Source: Diphasiastrum complanatum (lineage: Eukaryota > Streptophyta > Lycopodiopsida > Lycopodiales > Lycopodiaceae). Taken from it: a stretch of 64,000 bases of DNA. Below are positions 5,714 through 59,362 of this stretch, one piece after another. The translations under genes were made by a program, and so were the position numbers. Location: assembly GCA_029204225.1 (NCBI GenBank), contig CM055107.1:21750000-21813999 (forward strand). Reading direction: 5' to 3'. Position 1 is the stretch's first letter; each line of letters opens with the position of its first letter. Under the pieces are notes generated by a model that was not told the origin of the DNA, ran no database searches, and saw only the letters and a program-made list of their open reading frames with translations.

Positions 5714-7948
5714 CTTTGCTGCAACTGTAAGTGTAACATGCAGCAGCCCCTCCATCACCTGCACGAATGTCTGCTTCAGCTGCTCTACCAACCGGTCCAG
5801 CTGCAGCACTCAGACCAGCTCCAACTGAAAGGTGGACTCTTCCACTAAAGGCTTTTACTGCTTTTGTGGTGCGAAGCATAATAATAAAATCTGTGAGCTC
5901 CCCGCCAGCCTGAAAATTTTTGCCATACAGAGAAATGTTAACATTGAGTATAGAGAACTACAGGTCTTGAGTTTAAGGTAGAGTGGACCAAGTTTTAACT
6001 ATACACACCATACTACTCAAACAATGAAAATATCTACTGGCAAGCACAATCTTCTATCACTGAACTTTTTGCAAAGATACTCACTTGAGCACCCCAACCT
6101 ATACCAAAAGATGTGATTGCGGAAGGTGCAGACCATGTGCCATCAGACCTTCGAGCTACAACCAACCCAGTCCCTACTTTATATGTGAACATCATGCCTG
6201 CCTTAAGCACCGTGATGATGGCGAGTCCTTTAGCTCCCCTCAAAACAGCATCTGGAATTGATCGTTCTGACTTTAACTTTCCGACCTGGAAAAGGAACAA
6301 GAATCACCAAAAGAAGGTTGAAAACCAGGTGCACAAAAGCACAGGTTGAGATTTCAAACTATTTGAAAGATAAAGATCAGCTGATGTGCACCTGTAAATA
6401 GCTTCTTAGGCTATTTGTGGCTTTGTAAATCTCTTGTTCCATTGAAACACCTAGAGGACTGTTCAGCCAACCTCTCATGCAGCTTAGATCAGTAACATCA
6501 TGAGTTGCAATTTGTGCCGCATTACTTACTCGTTCAGCCAAAATCCTTTGAATAGGGTCCAGTCTTTCATAACATGTATCGCATACCCTTTGAGGGTCTC
6601 TTTCATGAAATTTTGAAGGTAAAAGGCATTTCCCTTTGGAGCATGCCCTACAAAACAAGCCACCACAAAAGCGGCAGTGATGTCTACCACAGGTAATAGG
6701 CCGAAAGCTTGTTGCACATTGCATGCAAGAAAAAGAAGCACTATCTGGCATCCATTGAGGAGGCTCTGCTTCCAAAACTGCTAATATTGATTGAACATCA
6801 TCCCTTGCACCCGAGAGAAGAGGAGCACTAGGAATAAGGTTTGGGTCCCACAAATTATCTAGCACTGTGTGACTGTAGACATCCATTCCTTCAACATGGT
6901 GGGCAGATATATGAGTCCAATTCTGATTTGTTTCCTCATGAACATGCACCGGCTGTCCCCTTCCAGTGAGAATGGTAAATAACCCACCGAGAACATTCCA
7001 TGCATTCACTTCTGGACCTTGGCTTCTTTGCGATAATACTCCATTCTGCCTCGCTTGTGTCATGCCATCATCTATAGGAAATACCCTTTTAGCATTTCTA
7101 GGAGGTACAGAGACTGGTGCCCACACATCTTCCTTAATTCGAGGACTCTGATCACTCACAAATAAATTGTCTGCATCCTTTCCAGCCAATGGAACCCTGC
7201 TCTTGTAAGAACAAGACAAGCTTTGCACTACAGGATAGGTATCGGCCTCCAGAAAGCTTTCCACGTGAGTAGACATCTGAACACGCTCTAGTGCCCCTTT
7301 CAGCTCCAGATTGAGGCCAAGCACGAGTTCTGAATCAAATTGTGTTCGACACAGTGGACACATCGGTTGCTTTGAATGCTTCAACACCTGAAATTCCCAA
7401 AACCAGCTTCTTCAGAAATTCACGAACCTGCTTTATAATGGAAGTGAACACTTAGGCCAAATTGACTCACATCAAAAGGATCCAACATTATTGAGAGAAG
7501 TTTCAACCAACTTATCTATTCCCGGCCAAATTGGCTCACATCAAAAGGATCCAACATTATCAAGAAAAGTCTCAACCTTCAACTTATCTATTCCCATATC
7601 TGAATCAAACTAAGTAAGTGCTTCTTGGTGATATCAACTAGTGAAGGAACTTGAAAATCATTGACTTTTACATTTATAGGTTAAAACGAACCACCCACAA
7701 TACAGCATGAATAAGCATCTCCATACAGACTCCTAGACTTTTATTATAAGCAATTTACCTTATAGAAAGTCTCAAAGAAGACATACCGTTTGCAGGCATT
7801 TCAAACAGCCATTATGCCCACAAGGGAATGAAGCAGGCCCGCCATTTGTGCCAAGCCAGTCCATGCAAACGACACAAGTTGGCAAATCATCGTCTTCTGG
7901 TTTTGTTCTGGTTTCTCTTGCCATATCCAAATGTGCACCACCCGTCAT
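5714..7948 (-). CDS. RING, FYVE and SYLF (Ysc84-like) domain protein, 3' partial
   Basis: Four exons join in frame with GT-AG borders: 7948-7787, 7387-6392, 6285-6085 and 5909-5714. The ATG at 7948 gives MTGGAHLDMA. A RING finger is split by intron 1: CVVCMDWLG and CGHNGCLKC lie in exon 1, and CPLCRTQF in exon 2. A FYVE zinc finger follows at about residues 235-300 (WMPD, GRHHCRFCGG, RVCDTC), then a SYLF/DUF500 domain (RGAKGLAIITVLKAGMM, GWGAQAGGELTDFI). Plants have proteins combining FYVE and Ysc84-like domains. FYVE fingers bind PI3P on endosomes, and SYLF domains bind phosphoinositides and, in yeast, actin, so a role at endosomal membranes is likely. The final phase needs two more bases from a downstream exon that is outside the window. 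A 4.85-kb Copia lies in that intron. Confidence 0.9.
7455..7596 (-). repeat. Tandem duplication in intron 1 of the RING-FYVE-SYLF gene
   Basis: Two units of about 70 bp begin with GGCCAAATTG and end with CTTATCTATTCCC. They differ at several positions. The splice sites of the intron are not affected. Confidence 0.85.
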
Positions 7949-8829
7949 ATTTACAGCTTTTGAAATTGTGCAATTACAGATGTGGAAGCCTGTAGTCCAC
8001 CCTGAGTTTAAATGGTTTAGAACAATCAGTGTCTGATACAAGGACTAATAATTAGGACATATTTCAGCAAGATTAGCTCGAAGCTGTGAAAATATGCTAG
8101 AACAATTAGCTTCGCTAAAATTCAAGAAGCTGAAATAACTTTAAAAAAAAAATTACAAAACACAAATAAAGACAATATTCAAACGTATACAATCCACATA
8201 AATTAATAGGTGCCGATCATCACAAAAAATCTAAAGCGAATGGGAGCTAGCTGTTTTTGTGCTTTCTGTCAGTAATATAGACAAATTTTGTTATGAGGAG
8301 CAACATTTTAACATATCCTAAGTTCAGAAATGAGAATATAGTTTCCATGAACCACGATTCGTTGGCAAACGAATCTCAATTGCCAATACATCGTCTGGGT
8401 CTGATTTGAATTGGAAAGAATCGGACCCAAAAAATAAATGCTAACAGAAAGTTGGAACGTGGAATCTAGTTTGTAAAGTTTGAATTGTGTCCATTCAACA
8501 TTGTCATATGCACTTGTGAACAGGGAACTTTGAAATGTATGTATTCATTAGCAATCTAACATCTGTAAGATTCTAGGAACAATATAGACATCATAGTAGT
8601 AGAATCATACATAGTACATTAGATATTTTTTAGCATTGAATCTAAAAATATCTTCAAAAGTTTACTTGCTGATTCTTTCCAAATGGGCCCAGTTCTACAC
8701 CACAATTTATGCCGATTCATCCGATTCTGAACCAGGTGGAGATATTTGATCAAAACATATTCCATGTGAAGCCCGCCAAAGCATCCACTAGATTGCACTA
8801 GGGTTAACAGCCCATAGAGTACTAGACAT
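7949..8829 (-). other. 5' untranslated or upstream region, no further gene
   Basis: The stretch just before the ATG carries possible AG acceptors on the minus strand (near 7956 and 8000), so an upstream 5' UTR intron is possible. I see nothing coding beyond that. Confidence 0.35.
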
Positions 8830-9300
8830 AAGCACTCACCAACCAACCGTAGATGGACTTTATTTCACACTTGTCACGTAAGCAACAACATTATGTCATC
8901 TTAGTTGTGGTTGATGAACTCACAAAAATGGCTCATTTATTCCAAGTCATAAAGATGACCTATTACGCCTGATTTGTTCCTTTAGCATGCATTCATGCTA
9001 GATGGGTTGCCTTCATGCATAGTGTTCCACAAAAATTCACATTTTATTGGTGGCTTTTAGCTTGCCGTGTTTGATAAGCTAAAGGTAAAAGTGGATATGA
9101 ATAATACAGATCATCCTAAGACATGGACAAACTGAGAGAGTTAACCAAACTTTGGAAGACATCTAACATGCTTGGTGTATATGAGGGTTAAGCAAACACA
9201 ATGTAAAAGATACTTGCCACTGTTGGAGTTTGCTCATAATAATAAAAAGAATGTACATACAACATGATTCCTTTTGAGTTTTTGGTTTAAGTTGTTAGTG
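8830..9300 (+). pseudogene. Ty3/Gypsy integrase fragment
   Basis: Starting near 8853 the frame reads MDFISHLSRKQ and VILVVVDELTKMAHL, which matches the core of Gypsy integrases. Later frames give VWKTSNMLGVY-like and NMIPFEFLV remnants of the segment after the catalytic glutamate. There are several stops and shifts. No LTR is seen around it, so it is a scrap. Confidence 0.7.
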
Positions 9301-36008: not shown

Positions 36009-36951
36009 ACCTCTTCCAGATTGGGAAGTTCATCTTGTAGTGCAAGCTAATTGAAAAAGTATTTGGCATTGTATACCGTATACCAACCACAGCTCACAAA
36101 ATCAACCTGCTGGGAGGACTGCAGTATTCAATATAAACGAAAATCAGAAACAAGATTTGAACATTATGTAATATCGGATCAATGCACAGGATGTTATAAT
36201 AAGATCTACAATGGAAACAAGCGCACGTCGAATTGATATCCAAAAAATATTGTCTGAATATCGGATTAGCGTGCATGATATGAAAAGAAACCAAGCAATA
36301 ACTGCAAGGGCGCGTCGAACCAATATTGAAAATTTTTTACCTTTGCATCAACCATTTTCAACTTCAAATATGCTATTGCATGTGGTACTATAAAGAGTTC
36401 CAGTATTTTCTGTATATGGCTCCTGGCAATTTTGTGTGTGTCTGTAATAGAGTTCATTTTTAAACAAACTAGATTACACACACCCTCATCATTGACATAT
36501 AAGAACAGCACGTATAGGCTCCAATGATCACTGCAATCATAAAAAAATAAATTTATGAGAATGAATGTTCATATAAAAAATTCAACTTAATAAAATCTGA
36601 TAGAAATACACTTACTTTGTTATGTATGGGAACACAAGAATTGGAGTCCCCAGTCTGACGTATTGGAGCATATCATCGTACAGACTTTTGAAATCAGGAA
36701 AATAAAAAATAGCCATGAATTGAAGAGAAAACAATGCTACATCTATAAACAATGGGGTCTGGAAAAACTCCATCCAGTATTGAATTGCCCCCCCTCCTAC
36801 ATTGTCCCCTAGCATTTTATCCCTACTTTCTAATTCACCTGTATCTAATTTAGAAAGGGGAAGACCAACATTGGTCTTTGGCATCCTAAAATTGTATAGA
36901 GGACCTAAAGCTTGAAGATAATGTTATAAATCCATAAATCATAATATGGAT

Positions 36952-37023
36952 GGATAGACTAGGATTCGAACCCAGGACCTCCCTCATATCGGATGGGATG
37001 CTCTACCACTGAGCTATCCGCCC
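36952..37023 (-). other. tRNA-like domain in TRIM 3' LTR
   Basis: On the minus strand a D-arm GCTCAGTGGTAGAGC and a T-arm CTGGGTTCGAATCCTAG can be folded. The acceptor ends GGGCGGA and TCTATCC pair at six of seven positions, counting wobble. The A box TAGCTCAGTGG and B box GGTTCGAATCC match Pol III consensus. The anticodon arm is about two bases too long. It is therefore tRNA-derived rather than a working tRNA gene. Confidence 0.85.
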
Positions 37024-37211
37024 TATTTGATAGTTCTCTCTAGAGTGTGGATTGATATTCCAACACCCCCCCTCAAGCCACACTTGGTTGAAGTCCTAGT
37101 TGTCACCTGCCCCACAACTTGGGCCACCTAACCATGGCTTTGACACCATGAACTGTTAGGTCTAACTTGGCTCTGATACCATGTTAGAAATCCATAAATC
37201 ATAATATGGAT

Positions 37212-37283
37212 GGATAGACTAGGATTCGAACCCAGGACCTCCCTCATACCGGATGGGATGCTCTACCACTGAGCTATCCGCCC
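37212..37283 (-). other. tRNA-like domain in TRIM 5' LTR
   Basis: This is a second copy of the tRNA-like domain with identical A and B boxes. It differs from the other at few positions, one of them in the anticodon loop (CATACCGG versus CATATCGG on the plus strand). Confidence 0.85.
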
Positions 37284-37802
37284 TGTTTGATAGTTCTCTC
37301 TAGAGTGTGGATTGATATTCCACCAGATAAGTGTTTAACAATTGGTCATACTCTACATATTGAGGAGTATTTACAAAGGCACTTAAGTGCAGAGGGTGAA
37401 GGAAGTAACACTGATAAACCACTAAAAGAATTGTCATTCAAAATTGACTCGACCATTAAATTTACAAAATCATCTAAATCTGTTTTTGAAACAGGAGGGG
37501 GGAACTAATATTTGTGAGGATAGGAGGAGACCTAGATTTTGAAAGAGGAGGAGATTTATTAGGAGATGAAGATTTAGGAGGAGGAGATGGAGATTGAGTT
37601 CTAGGAGGAGAAGAAAGAGATTTAGGAGGAGATTTGGATGCAATTAGAATATCATGTAGGAGAGAAGGCTTGGCAAAATCCCTCGCTTTCTTAGGAGGGC
37701 CATGAGACCTCCTCTTTTTTGATACACTCCTGCTCTGTACTCGAAAAATAAGTCAGGAAGATTGAGATTGCTTTCATTTTCTTTTCTCTACATCTTGTTA
37801 TG

Positions 37803-38204
37803 TTATGTGTCCCTTAGCCTGAACACAATGTTAAAATCCTTGGGCATGATGGTCACCCTCTTGGCATGGACAGCTACAACAATAGTATCTGAAACAAAAT
37901 TTGCTTGGAAATCCTCATATATAGTGTGCAGCGTCTCAATTGCCGTTACAATCCATCTCACATATACAAAAAGACTTCTTGTAACTTGTCTAATGGATCT
38001 CTGTATGTGAGCTTTTGGAATCAGAAGATTATTGGTCTTCTGTAGCTTCCGAATATCCTTCAACCAAGCATGGCCTCTTGGTCTGCCCCTAGGCCTAGGA
38101 GGAGGTGGTGGTGGATGAGGCGGTGGTGGTCGATTTCCCTTACCTCCTCTTGTAATTGGGATTCCACCAGGGTGGATTCATGTTGTTTGCTTTGTCCGCA
38201 CCAT
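37803..38204 (-). pseudogene. Histone H3-like domain of copy 1
   Basis: The segment is 133 codons, close to the 135-136 of canonical H3. Tail residues RTKQT, including the Lys4 position, are kept. The middle of the tail is replaced by a Pro-rich run (PPPPHPPPPPPRPRGRPRG). The alphaN helix, alpha1, alpha2 and alpha3 can be followed, ending with HAKRVTIMPKDF. KDF rather than KDI is seen in plant CENH3, whereas the tail start is canonical, so I would not assign it to CENH3. A TGA at codon 9 fits a CGA original. Confidence 0.82.
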
Positions 38205-42865: not shown

Positions 42866-43317
42866 CATACAAGCCTAGGAGTCATAAAGCTACCATGCTT
42901 TGAGAGGGAGCTGAAGAAACTTAGTTTTCACCTGCAAAGCATCGTTAGCTTACAAATCGCAAATTGCAATCCATCGCAACGGCAACCGCATCGTGAAATA
43001 TACGAGCGATGACGACGAAGTCTCACAGATCGCATATCGCAATAAACCACAAGTCGCAACTTCGAAAAAATAAACAAAGGAGATCGTAGGGAACTGCAAG
43101 TCAACTCCTAGGGTCCACGAACGACAACCAAGGGCCAACTGCAATGATCTCAGCTATGGTTGTAAAAGCACGGCCCTGGAGTTGGTGCACTTTACGACCC
43201 ACGATCAACTAAATACCAAGGCAACGAACTGACACCACGGACGAAGCTTACAGCAAACTAAATGCCACGGCGTGGTAGGTTTAGTAGTTCTTGTAATCAT
43301 TCACTTACATTAAAGAC
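42866..43317. other. No gene recognised
   Basis: Contains scattered words of the form ATCGCAA and TCGCAAC. No ORF is supported. Confidence 0.4.
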
Positions 43318-44026
43318 CATATGGATGGAGGACTTTCCAATGTTCCAGGAGTAGGAGACTTCAATGTTGAATGGCACTTAGTAGATGATTTGAAAACATT
43401 GAAATGTATGTATAATGTCTCTCAAGGTGCTACATCAAAACACCCTTGTTTGTACTGCATGAAAATGGCAAAAGATGTTACTAGGAGTACATGAATTACT
43501 AGAGAATATGTAGATCCAAACTGGAAGCCTGTGCTGCCTATCCCCTTGAAAAATGTGCATATTTGCACTCTTCATGCAGAAGTTAGATTAATAGAAAAGA
43601 TCATTTATCTTCATATAGTTTCTGTTTGGAATACTAAGCCAGCATCCTCAGCAAAGGAAGCTATCTCTCGATTAGAAGATGTTTTATCAAAAGCAGGACT
43701 TCATAAGGGACATGTCAAAATTCAAAAAGATGAAAAGCTTTCAAGAAAGAATGGGAATATGCCAACTAAGCCAAGCATAGGAGGAGAAAAAGCACGTCGA
43801 TTCCTATGAAATCGTATCGGTAAGGCTTCTAATATTCAACACTCAATCTGGACAGATATTATTGCTGCCACTCAGGACTTCGAGAAAGATGGCAAAACTA
43901 GAGTACTAAAAGTTGATGTATGGAAGAAGCTTGATAGTATGATTGCTATTTTAAGAAAAGAAAAATATTTTGATATTGATATATGTCCTCTTAGATAAAA
44001 TGATAAAGCTTTAACTGCCATTATCA
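43318..44026 (+). pseudogene. Transposase-like remnant
   Basis: One frame, broken by TGA at 43492, 43807 and later stops, reads GVGDFNVEWHLVDDLKTLKC, then ATSKHPCLYCMKMAKD, LPIPLKNVHICTLHAEVRLI and KPSIGGEKARRFL. The pattern of a DLK block, a CLYC pair and a downstream LHAEVRLIEK block resembles unclassified transposon-encoded proteins that I have seen in animals and fungi. I cannot name the family. It ends where a minus-strand gene begins. It could supply or have supplied the transposase for the neighbouring histone-like unit. Confidence 0.45.
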
Positions 44027-44029
44027 GAC

Positions 44030-45302
44030 TCTCCCCAACTGGGCTCAGCTTCGAACGAGCAATACAGATCTCATTCTTCAGAAAATTCCTAAGATAGTGG
44101 CCAAGTCCACTATCCCTCTGGAACGAGGATGCATGTTGTCTGTAACCACCTCGTCTCGCAGCAAAGTCATCAATTATGAGAGCATCCTGCAATAAGAAAT
44201 ATGTTAAAAAAAAATACATTCAACAGCTAAGAACATTCTAATGCAAGGAAGTTTAAACACTTACACATTCTTCATCATCAGCAACAACCAGATCAGGATG
44301 ATCAATATTATGACCACCTACTGAAGTAGAATCATCTGTGAAATGCATTAATGATGGACGAGGGAAGCCCATTTGGGATTGAAATGCCGTGAATTCTTCA
44401 TTGGATGGTCTGCCTCGTCCATCGGATGGTCTGTCTCATCCATCGGATGGTCTGCCTTGTCCATCCTCAACAATATTTGATAAAGTCTTAGTCAAACACT
44501 CTTCACCGGTCATAAGTCCCTCCTCATCATCATAATCAATTCTAGAAACAAGGTCATCCATTTCAAAATCTACAAAGTCGGAGAATTCAAAAATTGCGTC
44601 GGATAATAAACATAGCACCTCATCTTCACGATAGTCCAAAAACTGACATAAATCAACTGTAGTAAAATATACATCATCATTTATATAATATAGTGACAAT
44701 TTGAAAAGACATTTAGACTCATCTATAGGGATCGATTCATCAGCAGATGTATTTTGGCCAATAAAAGAATCCCGGAGCACATCAGTATTTACGTCAATAA
44801 AGTCACTATCCTTATTAGGGGTGTCGATTAGAAAGTGACTGATATCCTTAATAGATGACTGAACAGAGGATGATGCAATATGAGGGTCAACAGCAGAAAC
44901 TTCCTCATCATCCGAGATCTGAACTAATAGAAAAAGTACGAAACCACTCTAGTATTCAACCAATTGACATTTTTTGTTGTAGTAAGGACACATTGAACTG
45001 CTTTTAAAAAGATCAAACAGTTTGGTGAACATTCTATCTAATCTCTGTCTGAAAGCTGGGAAGAAATGAACAAGATCAATATAATGCATGTATGAGAGTG
45101 AACCTATGGAGATAACAAGCTTACTGAGTATATCCTTGGATCTATGTTCATAAAATACGTCAGAATTGGGTTGTGCAGTCTTAAAAACATGTAAATATGG
45201 CCCAAATAGGCTGTGGAAGTAGTCTAGATTTTCAGTAATCCCAAATTCAGTAAAAAATGAACTTAGGCCCGAATCTTGTGTAGATCCTAAGGAAGAGGCC
45301 AT
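44030..45302 (-). pseudogene. Unknown spliced gene X, divergent from histone-like copy 2
   Basis: ATG at 45302 opens MASSLGSTQDSGLSSFFTEF, with FGPYLHVFKTAQPNSD and FPAFRQRLDRMFTKLFDLF. Likely exons are 45302 to about 44960, 44923-44275 and 44186 to about 44030, with GT-AG borders (GTAAGT at 44274). The second exon is acidic (DYREDEVLCLLSDAIFEFSD, DFEMDDLVSRIDYDDEEG) and carries a small Arg-Pro-Ser-Asp repeat with one TGA. The last exon reads IDDFAARRGGYRQHASSFQR. I recognise no domain. It starts 838 bp from the start of the H3-like gene on the other strand, so the two share an upstream region. Confidence 0.5.
44403..44465 (-). repeat. Three-unit minisatellite inside gene X
   Basis: Units of 21-24 bp encode GRPSDG-type repeats. 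At the same position of successive units the codons are CAA, TGA and CGA. Confidence 0.85.
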
Positions 45303-46139
45303 GGCACTACTGTAGATATCACACCTATGCACGAGGGAGACAAAATGAAACAAAACTAATTGTAAAGATCATGCACAAGAGAGATATGTACGGCAGGTAG
45401 CACCTGGATATTGCACTTGTGCGCAAGTAGGGATCGAGGAATAAAATGTACAACAAAGCGCGCACACAAGAGCGATATTCTGTGAAATTTGAGAAAGAAT
45501 AAAGCAAAAAATTAATCGGATTTTGTGCCTTTTATAGTGAATTTTTACACGTGTGGCCAACGGTCTAAGGACACGTGTTCGTTCCCGATTGGTTTGCAGG
45601 CACTAGCACATGTGAGGTGACACCTGGACACGTGTGAAATGACACAAGGACACATGTCTCGTGTTCATTAGTCGGATGGACAACACGTGTCATTTTCTCA
45701 TTACGCCGTACAATCCCACACGTGTGAAATGACAACCTGACATGTGTCGAATGATCATTTGCTGACTTGTCACCACGTGTCACTTTTTGATGACTTGACA
45801 GTTTGCATGTGCGACAAGACGTTCTTTTGCACGTGCGAACCGCGATATAAAATCACAAACTCCGATGAATTTTTTTCACCTTTTTTTTCCCTCTGCATAT
45901 CGCACTTGTGCGCCGCCTTCCTGATCGATATTCTGCCTACTGCATTTCATGCGCACAAGTCCGATATTTATGCTTACGTGTCTTCTCATATCGAACTTGT
46001 GCGTCTTTCTTCTATATTCAAGGATCTCTCTGATATTTGGCTCGCACAGGTCCGATATACTGTACTTTCTTTTCGTACATAATATCGCTCCTCTGCGAAC
46101 GCTTCAAAATCCTCCCCTTCTTATCCTTAGTATACTTCT
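45303..46139. promoter_or_regulatory. Divergent promoter with two families of repeated motifs
   Basis: Between the starts of gene X (minus) and the H3-like gene (plus) are about ten copies of a motif close to ATATCGCACTTGTGCGC in alternating orientation. They lie in two outer clusters (45316-45479 and 45828-46098). Between them nine copies of the palindrome ACACGTGT or close variants occupy 45547-45780. ACACGTGT contains the G-box core CACGTG bound by plant bZIP and bHLH factors. The outer motif is unknown to me and resembles the motif around copy 1. Confidence 0.7.
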
Positions 46140-46505
46140 ATGGATAGGAGAAAGTAGACGAGGAGGGATTTCTTCTCTGCTGGCTCATCTTCAACCCCTA
46201 CGGTTGCCATTACACCTCCGGCTAGATCTAGAAGGCACAACTGTAGCAGGTGATTCTCTGATATTCGTAAGTATCAGAGATCAACCCCTCTGTTGATTCC
46301 CAGAGCTCCATTCTACCGTGTTGTAGAAATGATCTCGGTCAGCTTGTTACATTCACACCCTCTGCTCTCCAGTGCCTTCAGGACGTTGTTGAGGACTATA
46401 TGAGCCTTTTTTTTGAAGATTCATTTTGGCTTGTTATTCATTCTAAGAGAGTCACCATTATGTCTAAGGACTTTCAGTTACTGATGAGAATGAGGGAGAG
46501 ATTTT
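46140..46505 (+). pseudogene. Histone H3-like domain of copy 2
   Basis: The H3 elements in order are a short Arg/Lys tail, alphaN with RKYQRST, alpha1 FYRVV, alpha2 TPSALQCLQDVVEDYM, loop 2 with HSKRVTIM and alpha3 SKDFQLLMRMR. TAG at codon 6 replaces the Gln of the RTKQT position, and a TGA precedes FSDIRKYQ. One base is lost near 46323. Confidence 0.8.
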
Positions 46506-47883
46506 GCAAGTTACACATGTCTCAGCCTGCTGCTCCCAGACCTGTTCCTCTAGATAGGATTGATCTTCCTACCAAGCACCCTAGGAAGCAGGCAGCCCCC
46601 AAGAGAGCCCCAAAGAAAGTAAGGAGGGTAAATACCACCAATTCTGTGAAGCCTAACCCGGATGCAAATGTAGATAATGCTGCCCTAGATAAGGTTGTAA
46701 ATATAGTACATCGATTTTGGATACTCTTGTAATTCCTGTAGATACTACTCATCCACCTCCTCCTCCTCCTTCAAATCTTTATACATATATAGATTCCGAT
46801 GATTATCTTAAATTTGAGAAGGACATAGCCAATGTTGTAGATAGAATTGGTATTCCATTTTGTTTTAGAATAGAGGAATTTGACTTTAGTATAAATTATA
46901 GAGTTGTTGATTGTTTGGATCCCAAAAATAGACGGGCTTCTATCAGTGATCCTATGATAGAGTCTGGGATTACACTCTTGCAATATGACACTGCAAGAGA
47001 TTCATCCAATGAATTGCTGGTGCTCAGTAACTTTTTGTTTCAGGCCTTCAAGGAGAATAACGACACGTCACAGTGCTGACTAGTGGATTCACACCAGCAA
47101 CAAAATATCTGATCGTGCCTTATCATGCCAAGTAATTGTTAAATGCTTCCTGTTGTTTAATGCTTTATCATTGGCATTATCAATGGAAATAGTTCTCAAA
47201 GTTACAGCTAATGGACTTTCTATCTTATTTTGCAGTGACCACTGGAGTTTAAACCTGATCTCTATTAAGAGATCTGTAGATGATACTGTTAAAGGATTTT
47301 GTGTCAAGATGAACTCGGCTAGCAATACACATAAGGATGTAGATATATACTTGCCATATTTAAGTAAATATATTTCAACAGATGTTCCCCATTCAGTGGA
47401 CTGGAAATCGTTAGTTTGGAGGTAAATTCTGTCTTTCTTAACAACATTTTGAAATCAGTATTCTAATGTATTTGTTTCATTTTAATTCATTCTGTTTCTT
47501 AATTGATTTCTTGTGTGCTAAATGTTTTTGCAGTCACCCCAGCAAAATGATTCATTCAACTGTGGGTGGTACACATTATATCATGCAAAGTTATTTTTTG
47601 AGTGGTTCATCCTTCAGGAAGATGTTGATATTTCTAAGGTAATTAATTTTGTTTATTCTTATTTTTAGAATCGTGATTAGTTCTCTGTTTTGTTAATTTT
47701 TTTTAGCCATTACTAATACATGAATGTTCTATCTTGCAGTTTACACTTCCTGTGTACACATCAAGCTAGGCGGATAGATTTAGACAAAAAATTATCCTAC
47801 GCATATTGGCCAGAGCAAGGCTTCAGCCTCCCGTTGTTGATGATGGTGCAAAGGATGATGTAATTATACTAAATAAAGATTAG
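46140..47883 (+). pseudogene. Histone H3-like plus ULP1-type protease gene, copy 2
   Basis: ATG at 46140 gives MDRRK, a TAG, TRRD, matching the H3 tail start. RKYQRSTPLLIPRAPFYRVV follows, then in another frame LVTFTPSALQCLQDVVEDY and SKRVTIMSKDFQLL, the H3 fold to about 46500. The reading then continues without a stop through a basic linker (KHPRKQAAPKRAPKKVRR) and a segment to TKYLIVPYHAK at 47131. Later exons are 47236-47421 (DHWSLNLISIKR), 47534-47638 (QQNDSFNCGWYTLYHAKLFF) and 47740-47883. His and Cys with nearby Gln fit C48 (Ulp1) proteases, which remove SUMO-like modifiers. Breaks are two stops, three or four shifts and a one-base phase mismatch after exon 2. The fusion of H3 and protease is best seen here. 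Confidence 0.78.
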
Positions 47884-48061: not shown

Positions 48062-49416
48062 CTAAACTTTATTTGAAGCTATTGTTCTTCCACAATGGTG
48101 ATTGTTGTAGGTAGATCTTTGCAGCACGTTATCAACTCCTATCTTTTTCGCATCTGAAATGACAAATATTAGTGAATGTGCAATTGTAAATTATGTCATT
48201 TTCAATGATTTTGTACTATTTTGAAATGGCAATAAACATAAAGTACTTACGAGTCTTCCGTTTATGATAAATCTGAAATATGTTGGTAGATTGGTTTGTA
48301 ATAGCATGAGCTCTGTTATGATAAAATCAAGCTTCCAATGCTCTTCCACCTCAACCACAGTCAAATATTCCTCATTGTAGATAATGCTTATCTCCATTCG
48401 GTTTGTGTGACCATTTAGTTCAAAGTCTTGATCCAGTGCTAGCCATGTACCTTCAATTTTCTTGTATCTTTGATAGCTAAATGTGAGACTGAGCATTTGC
48501 TTTTCGATATGATAACGAAAGATCATTGAAGACTTTTTAATCATGCATTCTATGTCATTATTTGTTTTACTATCCCAGCCTTGATCTGATAAATCCTTGC
48601 AAACAAATAAAGTTGGTGTCCTACAAACACTAGCACTCGAGAAAAAATCAACAAATATATGTAATGAGATAAACCATCTTAGGTGAACAACTTTCTAGCT
48701 TGTCATAGCATTTCTAATATCAATGAGTAGCTTGCATCTCAAGGATTCAGAAACAATACTGTTAGGAGTAGGCCACTCATGACTTTGAAAATTAGGCAAT
48801 GGAATTGCTTCGAGCTTGCCAAAACCTCCATCCGTTTGTGGCGTATATAAAGATTCATAAAAATAGATACCACAATCTGCAAGTTCCTTCAGACTTCTTC
48901 CTCTATATTGCAGCTTTCGACCATCAGAGTGAATCACGTCCAATATTCCTACAAGTGATTGTGCTGGCTCCCATTCACTTATGCATGATGGATATAAATC
49001 TGAAAGAAAAAAACAATGTTGAAGCATTTACATCATAATCTGAAGAGCATCAATAAAGAAAATCACCTACGATTGTTGTAGAGTGCATATGTTTTAATAT
49101 ACTTACAATTACATTTTTGATGATCATGAGGATTGATATCATGTACTTTGATTTCTGAATGCATATATACATGTTGTACTAAAACTTCTGATATCAATTG
49201 ACCTCCCGAGATAGTCTTAAACACCAGAATTTTTGCTTTCCAATAAGATTTGTATGTCATTTTTGCTCTTTTCTTTTGTTGAAAATTGCCCTTTGATGAT
49301 GGATGCAGCAACACCCATGAATTCTTCGTATATTTTGTTGGCTTCCAGTTATCAGCTTCATCTTTCTCATTGTAAAGAATCACAGACTCGATTGTAGATC
49401 TGGGTCTCCTTGCCAT
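48062..49416 (-). pseudogene. Unknown spliced gene Y, convergent to histone-like copy 2
   Basis: Likely exons are 49416-49107, 48998-48695, 48635-48251 and 48153-48062. The first junction keeps frame across GT-AG (NYLYPSCISEWEP). Exon 1 has RRPRSTIESVILYNEKDEAD and SYWKAKILVFKTISGGQLI, loosely like a chromatin-reader (BAH-type) pattern, but I cannot confirm it. Exon 2 has GILDVIHSDGRKLQYRGRSL and ends with a TAG without an evident donor. Exons 3 and 4 join in frame (FRFIINGR to AKKIGVDNV). It lies between the H3-like gene and the end of the recognisable unit and may belong to the same mobile element. Confidence 0.5.
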
Positions 49417-50584
<1,168 letters not shown>

Positions 50585-54248: not shown

Positions 54249-55408
54249 TGGTTGGCTTCTATTTACAGTAAGTATTCCATTTCTGGTGATATTTGGATGT
54301 TTGATCAAGTTCTAGCATGATTTTGCATTGTTTTGTTGATCAAATCTTACTAACCTTTGTTTTGTGAGTTGAACTTGTGGATCAAAAGCATATTTCAGGT
54401 CTATTGAAGATCAGAGGCTGAAAAGAAACTATTTTGGATCAGATCATAACACCTAATCATTTGTGATTGTGAGGCTTGTGCATATTCAATACTAACAATG
54501 TTCTTTTCAATCCTATTGTTGACAATCTCCATTCTTGGATGAACACTCTCCTTAAGTGGATGAAACTTCTCCTTAAGTGGATGACAAATGCTCTTTTGAG
54601 TGAGTTGTAATTCTCCTAAAGGCTGAGCAAAGCTCCCATTTGGATGAAAGATCCCCTTTTTTGGGTGAACATATTGTAAGCTCCATTGTGAAGAGCATAT
54701 TGTAAAGATTGTCATCAATTTTGGCATAAATTTTGGTGTACTTTGTTGAGCATGTAAGTAACTCTCCTTATGTAATTTGATTGGAGCATTTGCTGGAAGG
54801 TGTTAACCATTATGCAAGTGTGTTTTCAGGTTCTTAACAGGTTGAGGAACATTCTCATGTGAAGTGATCTTAGATCTACATCTAAACACCAAGATTTGAC
54901 AAGATAGTGAAGCTAGTCTTGTGATTCACTAAGTGTGCTCATTCATTCACCTCTAAATCTTGTATTTATCACTTGCTGGAGTTTATAAACTTTTAGAAGT
55001 GTGGTTTACATGTGGTTTTACAGGTTGAATCAATATCTTAGTGTGTTGATCATATGTTGATCAAGTTTGTTCATTACTAGGTAATCTTGGCATCCTAGTT
55101 TTGGGTATTTTCTAAGAATGCAAGTAACTCTTCACACCATAACTTGATTTGGTCACTTGCTGGAAAGTTTGAGAGCTTAAGCAAGAGTGTGTTCAGGTTG
55201 GTTTGATTTTGTAATCCATTCTTAGTGTGTGCAAAGTGTTGCATGTGTTTCAATCTTCCTTTCTATGCTTGGAAACCATCTAGGTTCAAGATAGAAGTGT
55301 TTTAGGGTCCTAAATCTTCATAGATCTCTTTATCTATCATTTGTTGAGAGAAAAGTGAGTGCTAAGTGCTTTAGGACAGAACCTAAAAGTTGAAGAAACA
55401 TTAGAATC
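54249..55408 (+). other. Young Copia leader
   Basis: About 1.16 kb without an ORF. It contains loosely repeated words such as TCACTTGCTGGA at intervals (about 54966 and 55150), so some internal repetition exists. Confidence 0.7.
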
Positions 55409-58400
55409 ATGGCTTCCAATGGTGGGATCATGCTAGAGTCTAGTGAAAGGTTGAGTTCATCAAACTACTCTACTTGGAAAGTGAGGATGGAGTCCTTACT
55501 TGAGTTGAATGAACTCATGGACATAGTTGCAGAAATTGAAGAGAGACCTCTCACACTTCAAGAGCAACAAAGGTTTGATAAGAAGGCCAAAAGGGCTCTT
55601 CATATCATTAAAATGAATGTTACAAATGAACTTCTCAAGGAAGTTGGAAAGTGTCAAAGTGCAAGTGAGGCATGGAATGCCTTAAAGAAGCTCTTTGAAT
55701 CAAAGTCCACATCTAGGGTATTGACCCTAAGGAGACAAATATTTTCTAGTAGGCAAAGAGAGGGTGAAAGTGCTCATGCATTTATCTTGAGAGTTAAGTC
55801 CCTAAGTGATGATTTAGCATGCATTGATGAGAACATAAAAGATGGTGAAATAGTCCAAGTTATGTTGAATGGTTTGCTAAATGAACATGCTAACCTTGTG
55901 CAAAGTTTTGCCATTCAAAGAGTCTTGCCAAGTGTGGTTGACTTGCAAGAAATCTTATTGGCTGAAGAACATAGGTTGCAATCAAAGCTTGATGGTGCAT
56001 CCTTGCAAGGTGGAGGTGAAGAGGCTTTCTTCACAAAAGGCAAATTCAAGGGCAAAGGTAAAGGCAAAGGGAAATGGTCCAAAGGTGGTAACTTTGATCA
56101 TGATGATCACTCTTCCTCTTCCTCTTCTACTAAGAACAATAAGTCAAAGTTCAAGTGCTTTTATTGTGGGATAAAAGGTCATTTTGCAAATGAATGTTAT
56201 AAGAAGAAAAGAGAGCAAGGAGAGAGGCAAGGAAATCTTACAATAGATGAGGAAGAACATAACACATGTGAATCACTTGTTATGACTTCAAGTTTGTTAG
56301 CCAACATAGATGATAATGATCCTTGGTGGATTGATAGTGGAGCCTCATCTCACATGACAAGACATAAGGAATACTTTACATCCTTATTGTCTTATGAGGG
56401 AGAAGGTAACATCATCTACACTGCAAATGATGGTCAATGTGACATCAAAGGCATAGGCACTATTCCTATTTCCCTTTCAACAAATAGGAAAGCAAATCTT
56501 GAAAATGTTTTGTACATTCCTTCAATCACTAAGAATTTGCTTAGTGTAAGTCAAATGATTGACAAAGGACTTGATGTGGAGTTCATTGGAGATGCATGTT
56601 TGATAAGTAAATGTGGATCCTTGATTGCTCAAGGTAGGAGGCATGGTAAACTTTTCAAGCTTGATGCATGTGTGATCTCTAATCATGAAGGATGTATGGC
56701 TAGGGAGCAATTGACAAACCAAGAAGTTTGGCACAAGAGGTTGGGCCATCCCAACTTCAAATCTTTGGAGGTAATGGCAAAGAAAGAGCTTGTTCTTGGT
56801 CTCCCTAAAAGTCTTGTTGCAAACAATAGTGTTTGTGAACATTGTGCCTTGTCCAAATCTCATAGACTTGCTTATTCTAGATCTACTTCTAGATCTAAAG
56901 AAGCTTTTCAACTTGTGCATTCTGATATTCATTCTTCTAGTACAACTAGCAATGGTGGGGCAAAGATGTATGCAACTTTCATTGATGACTTTAGTAGGTA
57001 TACTTGGATCTATCTTCTTAAAAGTAAGGATGAAGTGTTTGCTGCATTTGTCAAGTTCAAGAATGAAATGGAAAACCAATTCAATACAAAGATCAAATGC
57101 TTAAGATCTGATAATGGAGGGGAATACACCTCAAATAGGTTCAAAGACTTTTGTATAGCACATGGGATTAAGAGGGAGATGTCTAGTCCTAGGACTCCAC
57201 AACAGAATGGAGTGGCCGAGAGGAAGAATAGAACCCTTTGTGAATGTGCCAAGGCAATGAGACTACATGCTAATCTTGCTAAGTCTTTTTGGGGGGAATC
57301 TTTAGCATGTGCTAACTATCTATGTAATAGATGGACAAGTGCTTCCTTGGATGGTAAAACTCCTCATGAGGTTCTTTATGGTAGAAGGCCGAGTGTCAAG
57401 CATTGTAGGATCTTTGGATGTACATGTTTTGTCAATATCACACTTGATGATAGAACTAAAGAAGATCCTTCATCAAAGAAGGGTGTGTTTGTTGGCTATA
57501 GTGAAGTAAGCAAGGCTTACAAAGTGTACATTCCTTCTACAAAGAAAGTTGTCATAAGTAGGGATGTCATCTTTCATGAAGAGAATGTTTCCAATGTTGT
57601 TGATGTTGATGTTGATGTGCCTACTAATCATCATGATGTGCAAGATGTCTTGGATGAAGATGGAGATGCCACTCCAAAGCAAACTTCAAGGAAGACTCAA
57701 AGGCAAAGGGCTAAGCCATCAAGGCTAACCTATGATGAAAAAGGAAAGCAAGTGGTGGACAACTCTAACTTTGCTTTTCTTACCTCTTTTGATGAACCAA
57801 CTTGTGTAGGTGAAGCAATTCAAAAGAAGGAATGGATCCAAGCCATGGATCATGAGCATCAAGCACTCATCAAAAGCAACACATGGAGGTTGGTAAAGCT
57901 TCCAAAGGACAAGAAGGCAATTGGTTGTAAGTGGATCTTCAAGATCAAGACAAATCAAGATGGATCAATCAACAAGTACAAGGCAAGGTTGGTGGCAAAG
58001 GGGTATGCTCAAGAATATGGTATTGACTATGATGAGACCTTTGCACCCGTGGCAAAGATGGTAACTATTCGAATCCTAATCTCTCTTGCAACTCTTTATG
58101 ATTGGGATATGTGGCAAATGGATGTTACTAATGCCTTCTTGAATGGTGATCTTGAAGAAGATATTTACATGGAGCAACCCAAGGGCTATGTTTCACATGA
58201 TGAGCCTAATCATGTGTGCTATCTCCAAAAGAGTTTGTATGGGCTAAAGCAAGCACCAAGGAGTTGGTATGCTAAGCTCAATTCCTTCTTACTTTCTCAA
58301 AACTTTGTTATGAGTGAGTATGATCATTCTCTCTACTTTAGATTGAATGAAAATGATATCACTTTACTTTTGATCTATGTTGATGACATTATCTTAAGTG

Positions 58401-59362
58401 GTGGTAACAATCTAGATATAGATGAAATCAAGATGGCACTCAAAAGAGAGTTTGAAATTCAAGATCTTGGTAAACTTCAGTATATCTTAGGAATAGAGAT
58501 TATTAGAACTTCTAAATCTACATTCATATGTCAAGAAAAGTATGTTAACTCTATTCTAAAAAGGTTTCATATGGAAGATTGTAAAGTTGTTTCTACTCCT
58601 ATGGAATCAAATGTAAAGCTAACTACAAGAAGTAATGAAAGATCCTTCAAGGACATTACTCTCTATAGAAAGCTAATAGGATCTCTTATATGGTTAACCA
58701 TCACAAGACCTGATCTAAGCTTTGTGGTTGGTAAACTAAGTCAATTTATGCAAGATCCTAGTGAGACTCATTGGAAGCTAGGAAAGAGAGTACTTAGATA
58801 CATCTCGGGATCTAGAGATTTTGGCATCTTGTATGGAGGTACTACACCTAACCTTTGTGGATTTTCAGATTCAGATTTTGCAGGTGATCAAATGGATAGG
58901 AAGTCAACAAGTGCCTTTGCAATCTATCTTGGAGATGGAATGGTCTCATGGCTATCAAAGAAGCAACCAACTATCTCTCTATCTTCCACCGAAGCCGAGT
59001 ACAAGGCATTAACAACATGCACCAAGGAGATTCTTTGGATCAAGAGGATGTTATTGGATCTTCACTTGCTGGAACCAGAGAAGACTCCAATCATACTTTG
59101 TGATAACCTTTCAGCCCAAAGCTTGGCAAGCAATCCTGTTTTTCATGCAAGGAGCAAGCACATTGAGATTGCTCACCATTTTGTGAGAGATCAAGTCATT
59201 GCCAAAGAGGTGGAGCTTCAACATGTCTCTTCAAAGGAGTGTGTGGCTGATATCTTCACCAAACCATTGGGAAAGGACCTATATTTAATGCATAGATCTA
59301 ATCTTGGAATGTGCTCAAAGACTATGTTGAAACTAGCATCCAATGTTGAAGAGGGAGTGTGA
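55409..59362 (+). CDS. Intact Copia Gag-Pol polyprotein
   Basis: The frame of 1317 codons has no stop or shift. In order it contains Gag (SSERLSSSNYSTWKVRMESL from about residue 10), a zinc knuckle CFYCGIKGHFANEC near 250, aspartic protease WWIDSGASSHM near 308 and a pre-integrase zinc site (WHKRLGHPN, CEHC). Integrase follows (LVHSDIHSS, RSDNGGEY, PQQNGVAERKN, near 505-605). Reverse transcriptase has QMDVTNAFLNGDLEEDIYME near 905 and YVDDIILSG near 990. RNase H has FSDSDFAGDQMDRKS near 1150 and ends ADIFTKPLGKD. These supply packaging, processing, cDNA synthesis and integration. The first ATG fits the Gag start of relatives. It is likely capable of movement if expressed, and the host would be expected to silence it. 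Confidence 0.97.
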   Translation: MASNGGIMLESSERLSSSNYSTWKVRMESLLELNELMDIVAEIEERPLTLQEQQRFDKKAKRALHIIKMNVTNELLKEVGKCQSASEAWNALKKLFESKSTSRVLTLRRQIFSSRQREGESAHAFILRVKSLSDDLACIDENIKDGEIVQVMLNGLLNEHANLVQSFAIQRVLPSVVDLQEILLAEEHRLQSKLDGASLQGGGEEAFFTKGKFKGKGKGKGKWSKGGNFDHDDHSSSSSSTKNNKSKFKCFYCGIKGHFANECYKKKREQGERQGNLTIDEEEHNTCESLVMTSSLLANIDDNDPWWIDSGASSHMTRHKEYFTSLLSYEGEGNIIYTANDGQCDIKGIGTIPISLSTNRKANLENVLYIPSITKNLLSVSQMIDKGLDVEFIGDACLISKCGSLIAQGRRHGKLFKLDACVISNHEGCMAREQLTNQEVWHKRLGHPNFKSLEVMAKKELVLGLPKSLVANNSVCEHCALSKSHRLAYSRSTSRSKEAFQLVHSDIHSSSTTSNGGAKMYATFIDDFSRYTWIYLLKSKDEVFAAFVKFKNEMENQFNTKIKCLRSDNGGEYTSNRFKDFCIAHGIKREMSSPRTPQQNGVAERKNRTLCECAKAMRLHANLAKSFWGESLACANYLCNRWTSASLDGKTPHEVLYGRRPSVKHCRIFGCTCFVNITLDDRTKEDPSSKKGVFVGYSEVSKAYKVYIPSTKKVVISRDVIFHEENVSNVVDVDVDVPTNHHDVQDVLDEDGDATPKQTSRKTQRQRAKPSRLTYDEKGKQVVDNSNFAFLTSFDEPTCVGEAIQKKEWIQAMDHEHQALIKSNTWRLVKLPKDKKAIGCKWIFKIKTNQDGSINKYKARLVAKGYAQEYGIDYDETFAPVAKMVTIRILISLATLYDWDMWQMDVTNAFLNGDLEEDIYMEQPKGYVSHDEPNHVCYLQKSLYGLKQAPRSWYAKLNSFLLSQNFVMSEYDHSLYFRLNENDITLLLIYVDDIILSGGNNLDIDEIKMALKREFEIQDLGKLQYILGIEIIRTSKSTFICQEKYVNSILKRFHMEDCKVVSTPMESNVKLTTRSNERSFKDITLYRKLIGSLIWLTITRPDLSFVVGKLSQFMQDPSETHWKLGKRVLRYISGSRDFGILYGGTTPNLCGFSDSDFAGDQMDRKSTSAFAIYLGDGMVSWLSKKQPTISLSSTEAEYKALTTCTKEILWIKRMLLDLHLLEPEKTPIILCDNLSAQSLASNPVFHARSKHIEIAHHFVRDQVIAKEVELQHVSSKECVADIFTKPLGKDLYLMHRSNLGMCSKTMLKLASNVEEGV

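Follow-up and report, generated by a model that had tools for sequence, protein, structure and literature searches.

On the plus strand, positions 46140–47883 of the window, by which we mean the whole 64,000-nucleotide stretch of Diphasiastrum complanatum DNA analyzed here, contain a broken copy (copy 1) of a four-exon gene that encodes, in this order, an H3-type tail, an H3 fold, a basic linker, a middle region and a C48 (Ulp1-like) protease. Exon 1 (46140–47131) carries the H3-like tail (approximately 46140–46226), the H3 histone fold (approximately 46227–46500), the basic linker (approximately 46501–46704) and the middle region (approximately 46705–47131). Exon 2 (47236–47421) codes for the DHWSL motif with the catalytic His of C48 proteases and for KMNS where the catalytic Asp would be expected, exon 3 (47534–47638) for SPQQNDSFNCGWYT with the C48 Gln and Cys, and exon 4 (47740–47883) for the C-terminus. 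This last exon contains one internal stop here and is open in one spliced copy from elsewhere in the genome. Copy 1 begins in frame 1 with MDRRK and a stop at the sixth codon, followed by TRRDFFSAGSSS, a second stop and FSDIRKYQRSTPLLIPRAPFYRVV; the frame then switches and continues with SKRVTIMSKDFQLL and the open basic linker, and the middle region lies in a frame other than that of the linker. The H3 fold is split over two frames, the second part of which matches Pfam Histone (3.1e-10). Exons 1 and 4 of this copy are interrupted by stops, and its reading frame changes at least three times. The first-pass annotation of this locus had described an H3 tail start, an H3 fold, a basic linker without a stop and exons with DHWSL and QQND-NCGWYT patterns. 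All of these are present, though the tail is interrupted by the early stop, and the protease exons are flanked by GT and AG. The Cys exon of copy 1 by itself scores 16.4 bits for Peptidase_C48, below the cut-off of 20.7.

A second copy of the same layout, which the first-pass annotation had missed, lies on the minus strand at 36011–38204 (copy 2). It is also broken and belongs to a second subfamily, with the tail at 38178–38204, the H3 fold at 37806–38177, the linker at 37474–37752, the middle region at 36612–36916, the His exon at approximately 36338–36530 and the Cys exon at 36011–36118. The tail reads MVRTKQTT followed by a stop and has no Lys at the Lys9 place. The fold lies in a single frame (Pfam Histone, 1.8e-16), after which come two stops and a frame change, the basic linker, the middle region, a DHWSL exon and an exon with SSQQVDFVSCGWYT. 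Aligned end to end, the read-throughs of copies 1 and 2 (with X at the breaks) are 30% identical, and by BLAST pieces the identity reaches 37% for H3, 32% for the His exon and 52% for the Cys exon. The middle regions of copies 1 and 2 do not match each other by BLAST and are linked solely by position and by a MAFFT alignment. As judged by eye, the intron places are alike in both copies. Both read-throughs match Histone (best 1.9e-18), and the best E-value for Peptidase_C48 is 8.7e-9; the read-through of copy 2 alone stays below the Pfam cut-off for this family (10.5 bits, E 0.53).

Copy 2 is interrupted by a short LTR-type insertion on the minus strand (36922–37325, 404 bp) with a TTATC target duplication. 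When the empty site is restored, the frame of copy 2 reads on. The insert has putative TG...CA ends and a putative tRNA-Met-type primer site. Its two repeats each hold tRNA-like sequence, and the two ARAGORN tRNA calls of the window (Ile, Thr) fall inside these repeats. Elsewhere in the window, positions 55394–59362 hold an open frame of 1,322 codons that looks by eye like a Copia-type polyprotein.

We searched the host genome assembly (1.74 Gb, 5,176 contigs) for further copies; the first-look candidate numbers of these searches are not copy counts. The best 150 of 6,325 candidates from a Histone search included 13 canonical H3 at 163.7–165 bits, with the next best at 109.5 bits. A 266-residue query consisting of H3, linker and middle region gave at least 144 matches (the best 144 of 8,195 candidates), each with E<1e-120. 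The listed matches occur on each of C1–C24, and 37 of the 144 are without an internal stop as counted by hand. Many of the copies seen bear defects. From the 37 stop-free matches we fetched eight subfamily-1 copies, which are a chosen sample and not a random one. All eight start M-D-R-(R/K)-K-(Q/H)-T-R-R, and in seven of them exon 1 is a single open frame that starts at the ATG, spans H3, linker and middle region and reaches the first splice donor, where the stop-to-stop frame of 331–340 codons ends. The exception, L054, has a stop shortly ahead of the donor. The His exon follows exon 1 in all eight copies, which also share the second-intron donor GAGGTAA. The catalytic Cys is retained in five of the eight: the Cys exon gives no match in L050, the region is missing in L051 and the Cys is altered in L052. 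Some of the fetched copies contain further stops in exons 2–4.

Splicing one copy with matching phases yields a protein of 491 residues that passes the Pfam cut-offs of both Histone (87 bits, 1.5e-24; cut-off 26.4) and Peptidase_C48 (36.1 bits, 7.9e-9; cut-off 20.7), the latter being a threshold that the Cys exon of copy 1 alone and copy 2 do not reach. The first-pass annotation had proposed a check against these two profiles, and the outcome in which either fails to match did not occur. Immediately after its donor, the first intron has an in-frame stop, so that unspliced RNA would yield a product with the histone part and no protease. With the His exon as query, 38 of the best 150 of 4,151 candidates sit 227–314 bp, mostly 309 bp, downstream of a match to the 266-residue query on the same strand. 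Among the matches listed, no His exon lies near such a match in any other arrangement, and 112 of the 150 have no listed partner.

Subfamily 2 was searched with the H3 part of copy 2 as query, and the best 150 of 9,854 candidates were scored. One copy, L068, was picked for its long frame and fetched. It contains a single frame of 417 codons that comprises MVQTKQTARG, the H3 fold (Pfam Histone, 2.8e-20), the linker, the middle region and LPYIKK. Downstream of this frame follow an NDHWSL exon, the frame of which is shifted by a dinucleotide repeat, and an exon with SSQQVDSVSCGWYT. By itself, the frame with the Cys exon of L068 gave no match to the C48 profile. A query with the subfamily-2 middle region (best 150 of 1,611 candidates) returned four rows, L068 included, with stop-free frames of 417–427 codons, which is long enough for the H3-protease layout. 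We considered that the stop right after the fold of copy 2 might be a native H3 end, and rejected this possibility because the L068 frame continues. Since this relative has no stop at that place, the stop in copy 2 is most likely a product of decay. Separate genes lying side by side can be rejected as well, given the one open frame in seven of the eight fetched subfamily-1 copies and in the subfamily-2 copy. The proposal that H3 and protease form one gene of a mobile element is supported, and the observation made from the sequence alone is confirmed as real and as larger than described. We regard it as virtually certain that one transposon gene encodes an H3-variant histone, a linker, a middle region and a C48/Ulp1-like protease.

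The element that carries this gene is approximately 8 kb long and is bounded by 32-bp inverted repeats. Besides the H3-protease gene it contains three further genes and a motif array. Gene T (43297–44000, plus strand) is 5'-truncated in the window and has no Pfam match; we take it to be a putative transposase, solely by a D/CxxC/H pattern. Gene A (44253–45302, minus strand) is divergent from the H3-protease gene and contains one stop here, and gene D (48191–49418) lies on the minus strand; neither has a Pfam family over the cut-off. The interval that separates gene A from the H3-protease gene contains an array (45372–46097) of ATATCGNACTTGTGCG-like motifs that alternate in orientation; there are eight of them, against 0.79 expected by shuffling. 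Most spacings are approximately 55 or 36 bp, and a larger gap lies at the center of the array. The right terminal inverted repeat (49850–49881) is decayed, with 26 of 32 bases retained as counted by eye, and gave no match at up to three mismatches. The left end of the window element is missing.

Four further copies of the element (E19, E9b, E9a and E23) were read over 30 kb each. E19 and E9b have the gene order T(+), A(-), H3-protease(+), D(-). E9a is without gene A, and E23 has T, A and H3 and is without protease or D. The array contains ten motifs in E19, nine in E23 and eight in E9b, where two more hits lie outside; E9a lacks the array region and has one motif. In the second intron of window copy 2 (36150–36340), inspection by eye shows motifs similar to those in the promoter array of copy 1, with one match at up to four mismatches. 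Three of the four element copies cease to align to the window at 49881–49882, and E19 has a perfect 32-bp inverted repeat with ends approximately 8.2 kb apart. With up to three mismatches, the pattern of this repeat occurs at 1,177 + 1,240 = 2,417 places in the genome, and the reversed control at 0 + 0. The repeat begins CATTAGAGGAG, not CACTA. One of five end pairs has a target duplication of 3 bp (TCA) and four have none; two of these pairs share an end and some are perhaps mispaired. E19, with both ends present, has no target duplication. No Pfam family for a MULE/mudrA or Tnp2-type transposase was found in the pieces of gene T, from which a distant relative could escape, and known transposase families were set aside as no Pfam match exceeded the cut-off in pieces of genes T, A and D. 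A viral origin was also rejected: a scan of viral contigs matched 52 stretches by pattern, none of them a relative. The host of the H3-protease gene is a multi-gene DNA transposon with terminal inverted repeats that is abundant in this plant genome.

To describe selection on the gene we calculated pairwise dN/dS by the Nei-Gojobori method for 12 copies, as a ratio of sums over pairs that are not independent. E23 was excluded, since its middle region does not align. Filters dropped one of 66 pairs for the tail and one for the linker, leaving 65 pairs each for these and 66 each for the fold and the middle region. The ratio is 0.21 for the H3 fold, 0.25 for the tail, 0.42 for the middle region and 0.52 for the linker. 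For the fold, the values of single pairs span 0.10–0.88, and the initial set of five copies yielded 0.10–0.25; for the tail, single pairs go as high as 2.06. The His exon has values of 0.28–0.81 (six pairs, with 0.81 in one), the Cys exon 0.15–0.20 (three pairs) and gene A 0.21–0.46 (six pairs). An open frame by chance is rejected by these ratios. Because the histone fold is constrained at least as much as the other regions of exon 1, it does not behave like a passenger. Both halves, H3 and protease, are maintained by selection, and the mobile element therefore appears to make its own chromatin protein.

Which kind of histone this is can be judged from its residues (numbers follow the usual numbering of H3 and Ulp1). 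Both subfamilies exceed the curated cut-off of Pfam PF00125 (87 and 73.2 bits against 26.4). The fold of three subfamily-1 copies is 53–55% identical to a host H3, and that of copy 2 is 38% identical. In these four aligned sequences H113, K115, R116, T118, K122 and D123 of H3 are kept, so the H3-H3' interface residues H113, R116 and D123 are present; Cys110 and Arg49 are changed. Among the 12 subfamily-1 copies, E9a has His at D123 and E9b has Gly at V117. The protein thus resembles canonical H3 in its fold, in its dimer-interface residues and in the R-x-K-Q-T start of the subfamily-1 tail. It differs in a tail that lacks Lys9 and the majority of the other lysines, and in that the protein runs on into a linker and a protease. 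Lys4 is kept in all 12 subfamily-1 copies, and the Lys9 place is occupied by Asp or Asn in all 12 and by Gly in L068; Lys9 is absent in every fused copy examined, and no Lys27 aligns in subfamily 1. As a divergent H3 with an altered tail, the protein also resembles CENH3/CENP-A. When aligned to host H3, loop 1 is one residue longer in subfamily 1, but not in copy 2. Sequence searches do not favor CENH3 over H3: with a typed hybrid of two subfamily-1 copies as query, the best relatives among solved structures are H3 chains, and none of the best 60 of 175 chains is named centromeric. For copy 2, H3 and fission-yeast Cnp1 are intermixed in the ranking.

The catalytic His, Gln and Cys of the protease part align with those of yeast Ulp1 (1euv). 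At the place of the catalytic Asp both subfamilies have Asn (KMN), a placement that was read from a gapped alignment; with Asn for this Asp, protease activity is not certain. Solved-structure matches to the protease are weak (best E 0.0025). Of the five, yeast Ulp1 and a Ulp1-like SUMO protease rank best, and SENP8 is also included. The C48 family includes specificities other than SUMO.

Further H3-like genes occur in related elements. A family of proline-rich open frames (L019–L022 and L043–L046) has an H3-like domain at the C-terminus (for example, positions 847–1839 of L020); the frames end in RRERN or RSERH and, in L019–L022, encode 208–394 residues. Gene T of this family is 39% identical to that of the window over 225 residues, and gene D is 27–31% identical by pieces. 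Two 20-kb stretches of this family, searched with the exons of the H3-protease family, yielded no protease, which suggests that not all of these elements need the fusion. Within 4 kb, L047 contains two different H3-like genes (6018–6410 and 8298–8914) together with two kinds of gene A; this may reflect two nested elements or a single element with two histones.

In the protein database, a length-limited search that scored 7,999 candidates with the alignment of two copies as query matched at least five proteins. With the read-through of copy 1 as query, just two H3 proteins were matched, and the middle and protease part of this copy alone found no match. P0003 (653 residues) is the only one of the five hits with both PF02902 and PF00125; there, the protease is N-terminal, with the Cys motif ahead of the His motif, and H3 forms the C-terminus. 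P0001 from Diploscapter pachys (442 residues) combines an H3 domain with a downstream hydrolase domain, which may result from a fusion of gene models. P0005 (735 residues) and P0006 (371 residues) have a divergent C-terminal H3 domain with IRKLQK-TNLLIPKAPFYRLV and are perhaps further mobile or viral histones.

We know of no other mobile element with its own histone under selection, and a search of the open-access full-text literature found neither a transposon-encoded histone H3 nor an H3-Ulp1 fusion. ULP1 (C48) regions are known from plant DNA transposons of the MULE and CACTA types, according to the excerpted text of PMC2528002. KI-MULEs, MULE-ULP and CACTA-ULP are like the element described here in that a DNA transposon carries a C48/ULP1 region; this excerpt mentions no histone domain, whereas here the protease is fused to H3 and the pieces of gene T contain no Pfam transposase. 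VANC of the Arabidopsis VANDAL elements is a transposon-encoded anti-silencing protein, the targets of which are often tandem repeats (PMC5735166). By analogy to these repeated targets, the motif array between the two divergent genes may be a binding site. Compared by description, VANC differs from the H3-protease protein, as the abstract of PMC5735166 mentions neither a histone nor a protease domain.

Transposon silencing works via histone marks. SUMO promotes silent chromatin in yeast, plants and animals, as stated in the excerpt of PMC8131101. Our best explanation for the fused gene, to which we assign a probability of roughly one half, is that the transposon H3-protease serves as a chromatin-tethered deSUMOylase opposing silencing. 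Through its histone part, the protein would be lodged in chromatin or bound to its surface in the form of an H3-H4-like unit, with the protease stripping SUMO, or a similar tag, off silencing proteins at that site. Removal of the tag would keep the promoter region of the element open, and a histone part without Lys9 could, as a second layer, additionally dilute the repressive mark at the site. We infer nucleosome entry, SUMO as the substrate and anti-silencing from the domains and their residues; the anti-silencing mechanism itself is put forward tentatively, at slightly less than even odds. An extended version, which we consider rather unlikely, would have the element lay an H3 variant that cannot be methylated at Lys9 near the motif array, with the fused protease deSUMOylating silencing factors there, such that the copies would become self-protecting, silencing-proof islands. 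In this extension, the H3-like genes of related elements with no protease found nearby would make transposon-encoded histones a class of their own.

It is unlikely that the histone part is the main effector, namely as a Lys9-less variant that replaces host H3, with a protease that merely processes its own linker or removes competitors. Such a role would agree with the tail (Asp or Asn at the Lys9 place and Lys4 kept in 12 of 12 subfamily-1 copies, MVQTKQTARG in L068), with dN/dS being lowest in fold and tail among the four regions of exon 1, with a related subfamily that has an H3-like protein and no protease found nearby, and with the histone-only product expected from unspliced RNA. Yet the protease exons likewise have low dN/dS and are fused to H3 in two distant subfamilies. 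That the C48 domain acts on a target other than SUMO, either another ubiquitin-like tag or proteins of the element itself, seems improbable to us: the Asn in place of Asp, the CGWYT motif, SENP8 among the five structural matches and the other specificities known for C48 point in this direction, but yeast Ulp1 and a SUMO protease of the Ulp1 type rank ahead of the other matches.

We consider it quite improbable that the H3 fold is a CENH3-like tether that directs the machinery of the element, or its insertion, to a particular kind of chromatin, for example that of centromeres. The sequence LLIPRAPF and the extra residue in loop 1 of subfamily 1 are reminiscent of centromeric H3, and the structural ranking for copy 2 mixes H3 with Cnp1; however, the hybrid subfamily-1 query found no chain named centromeric among the best 60 of 175, and the listed genomic matches spread over each of C1–C24. 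A functionless origin, in which the two parts became neighbors by chance or were passively captured as host fragments, would be in line with the habit of transposons to pick up pieces of host genes and with the many broken copies seen here, but it is already contradicted by the results on selection and co-occurrence, and we consider it extremely improbable. Order and open frame are common to two subfamilies that are approximately 30% identical, the dN/dS of the H3 fold is 0.21, and all 38 of the 38 co-located listed matches are found in a single arrangement.

If the H3-protease is indeed a chromatin-tethered deSUMOylase, a transposon would combine a histone with a SUMO-protease-like domain to attack the histone-mark and the SUMO layers of silencing at one place, and anti-silencing by histone replacement would become directly testable. 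The abundance of the family within a single genome would allow the evolution of a histone in an arms race to be followed across many copies.
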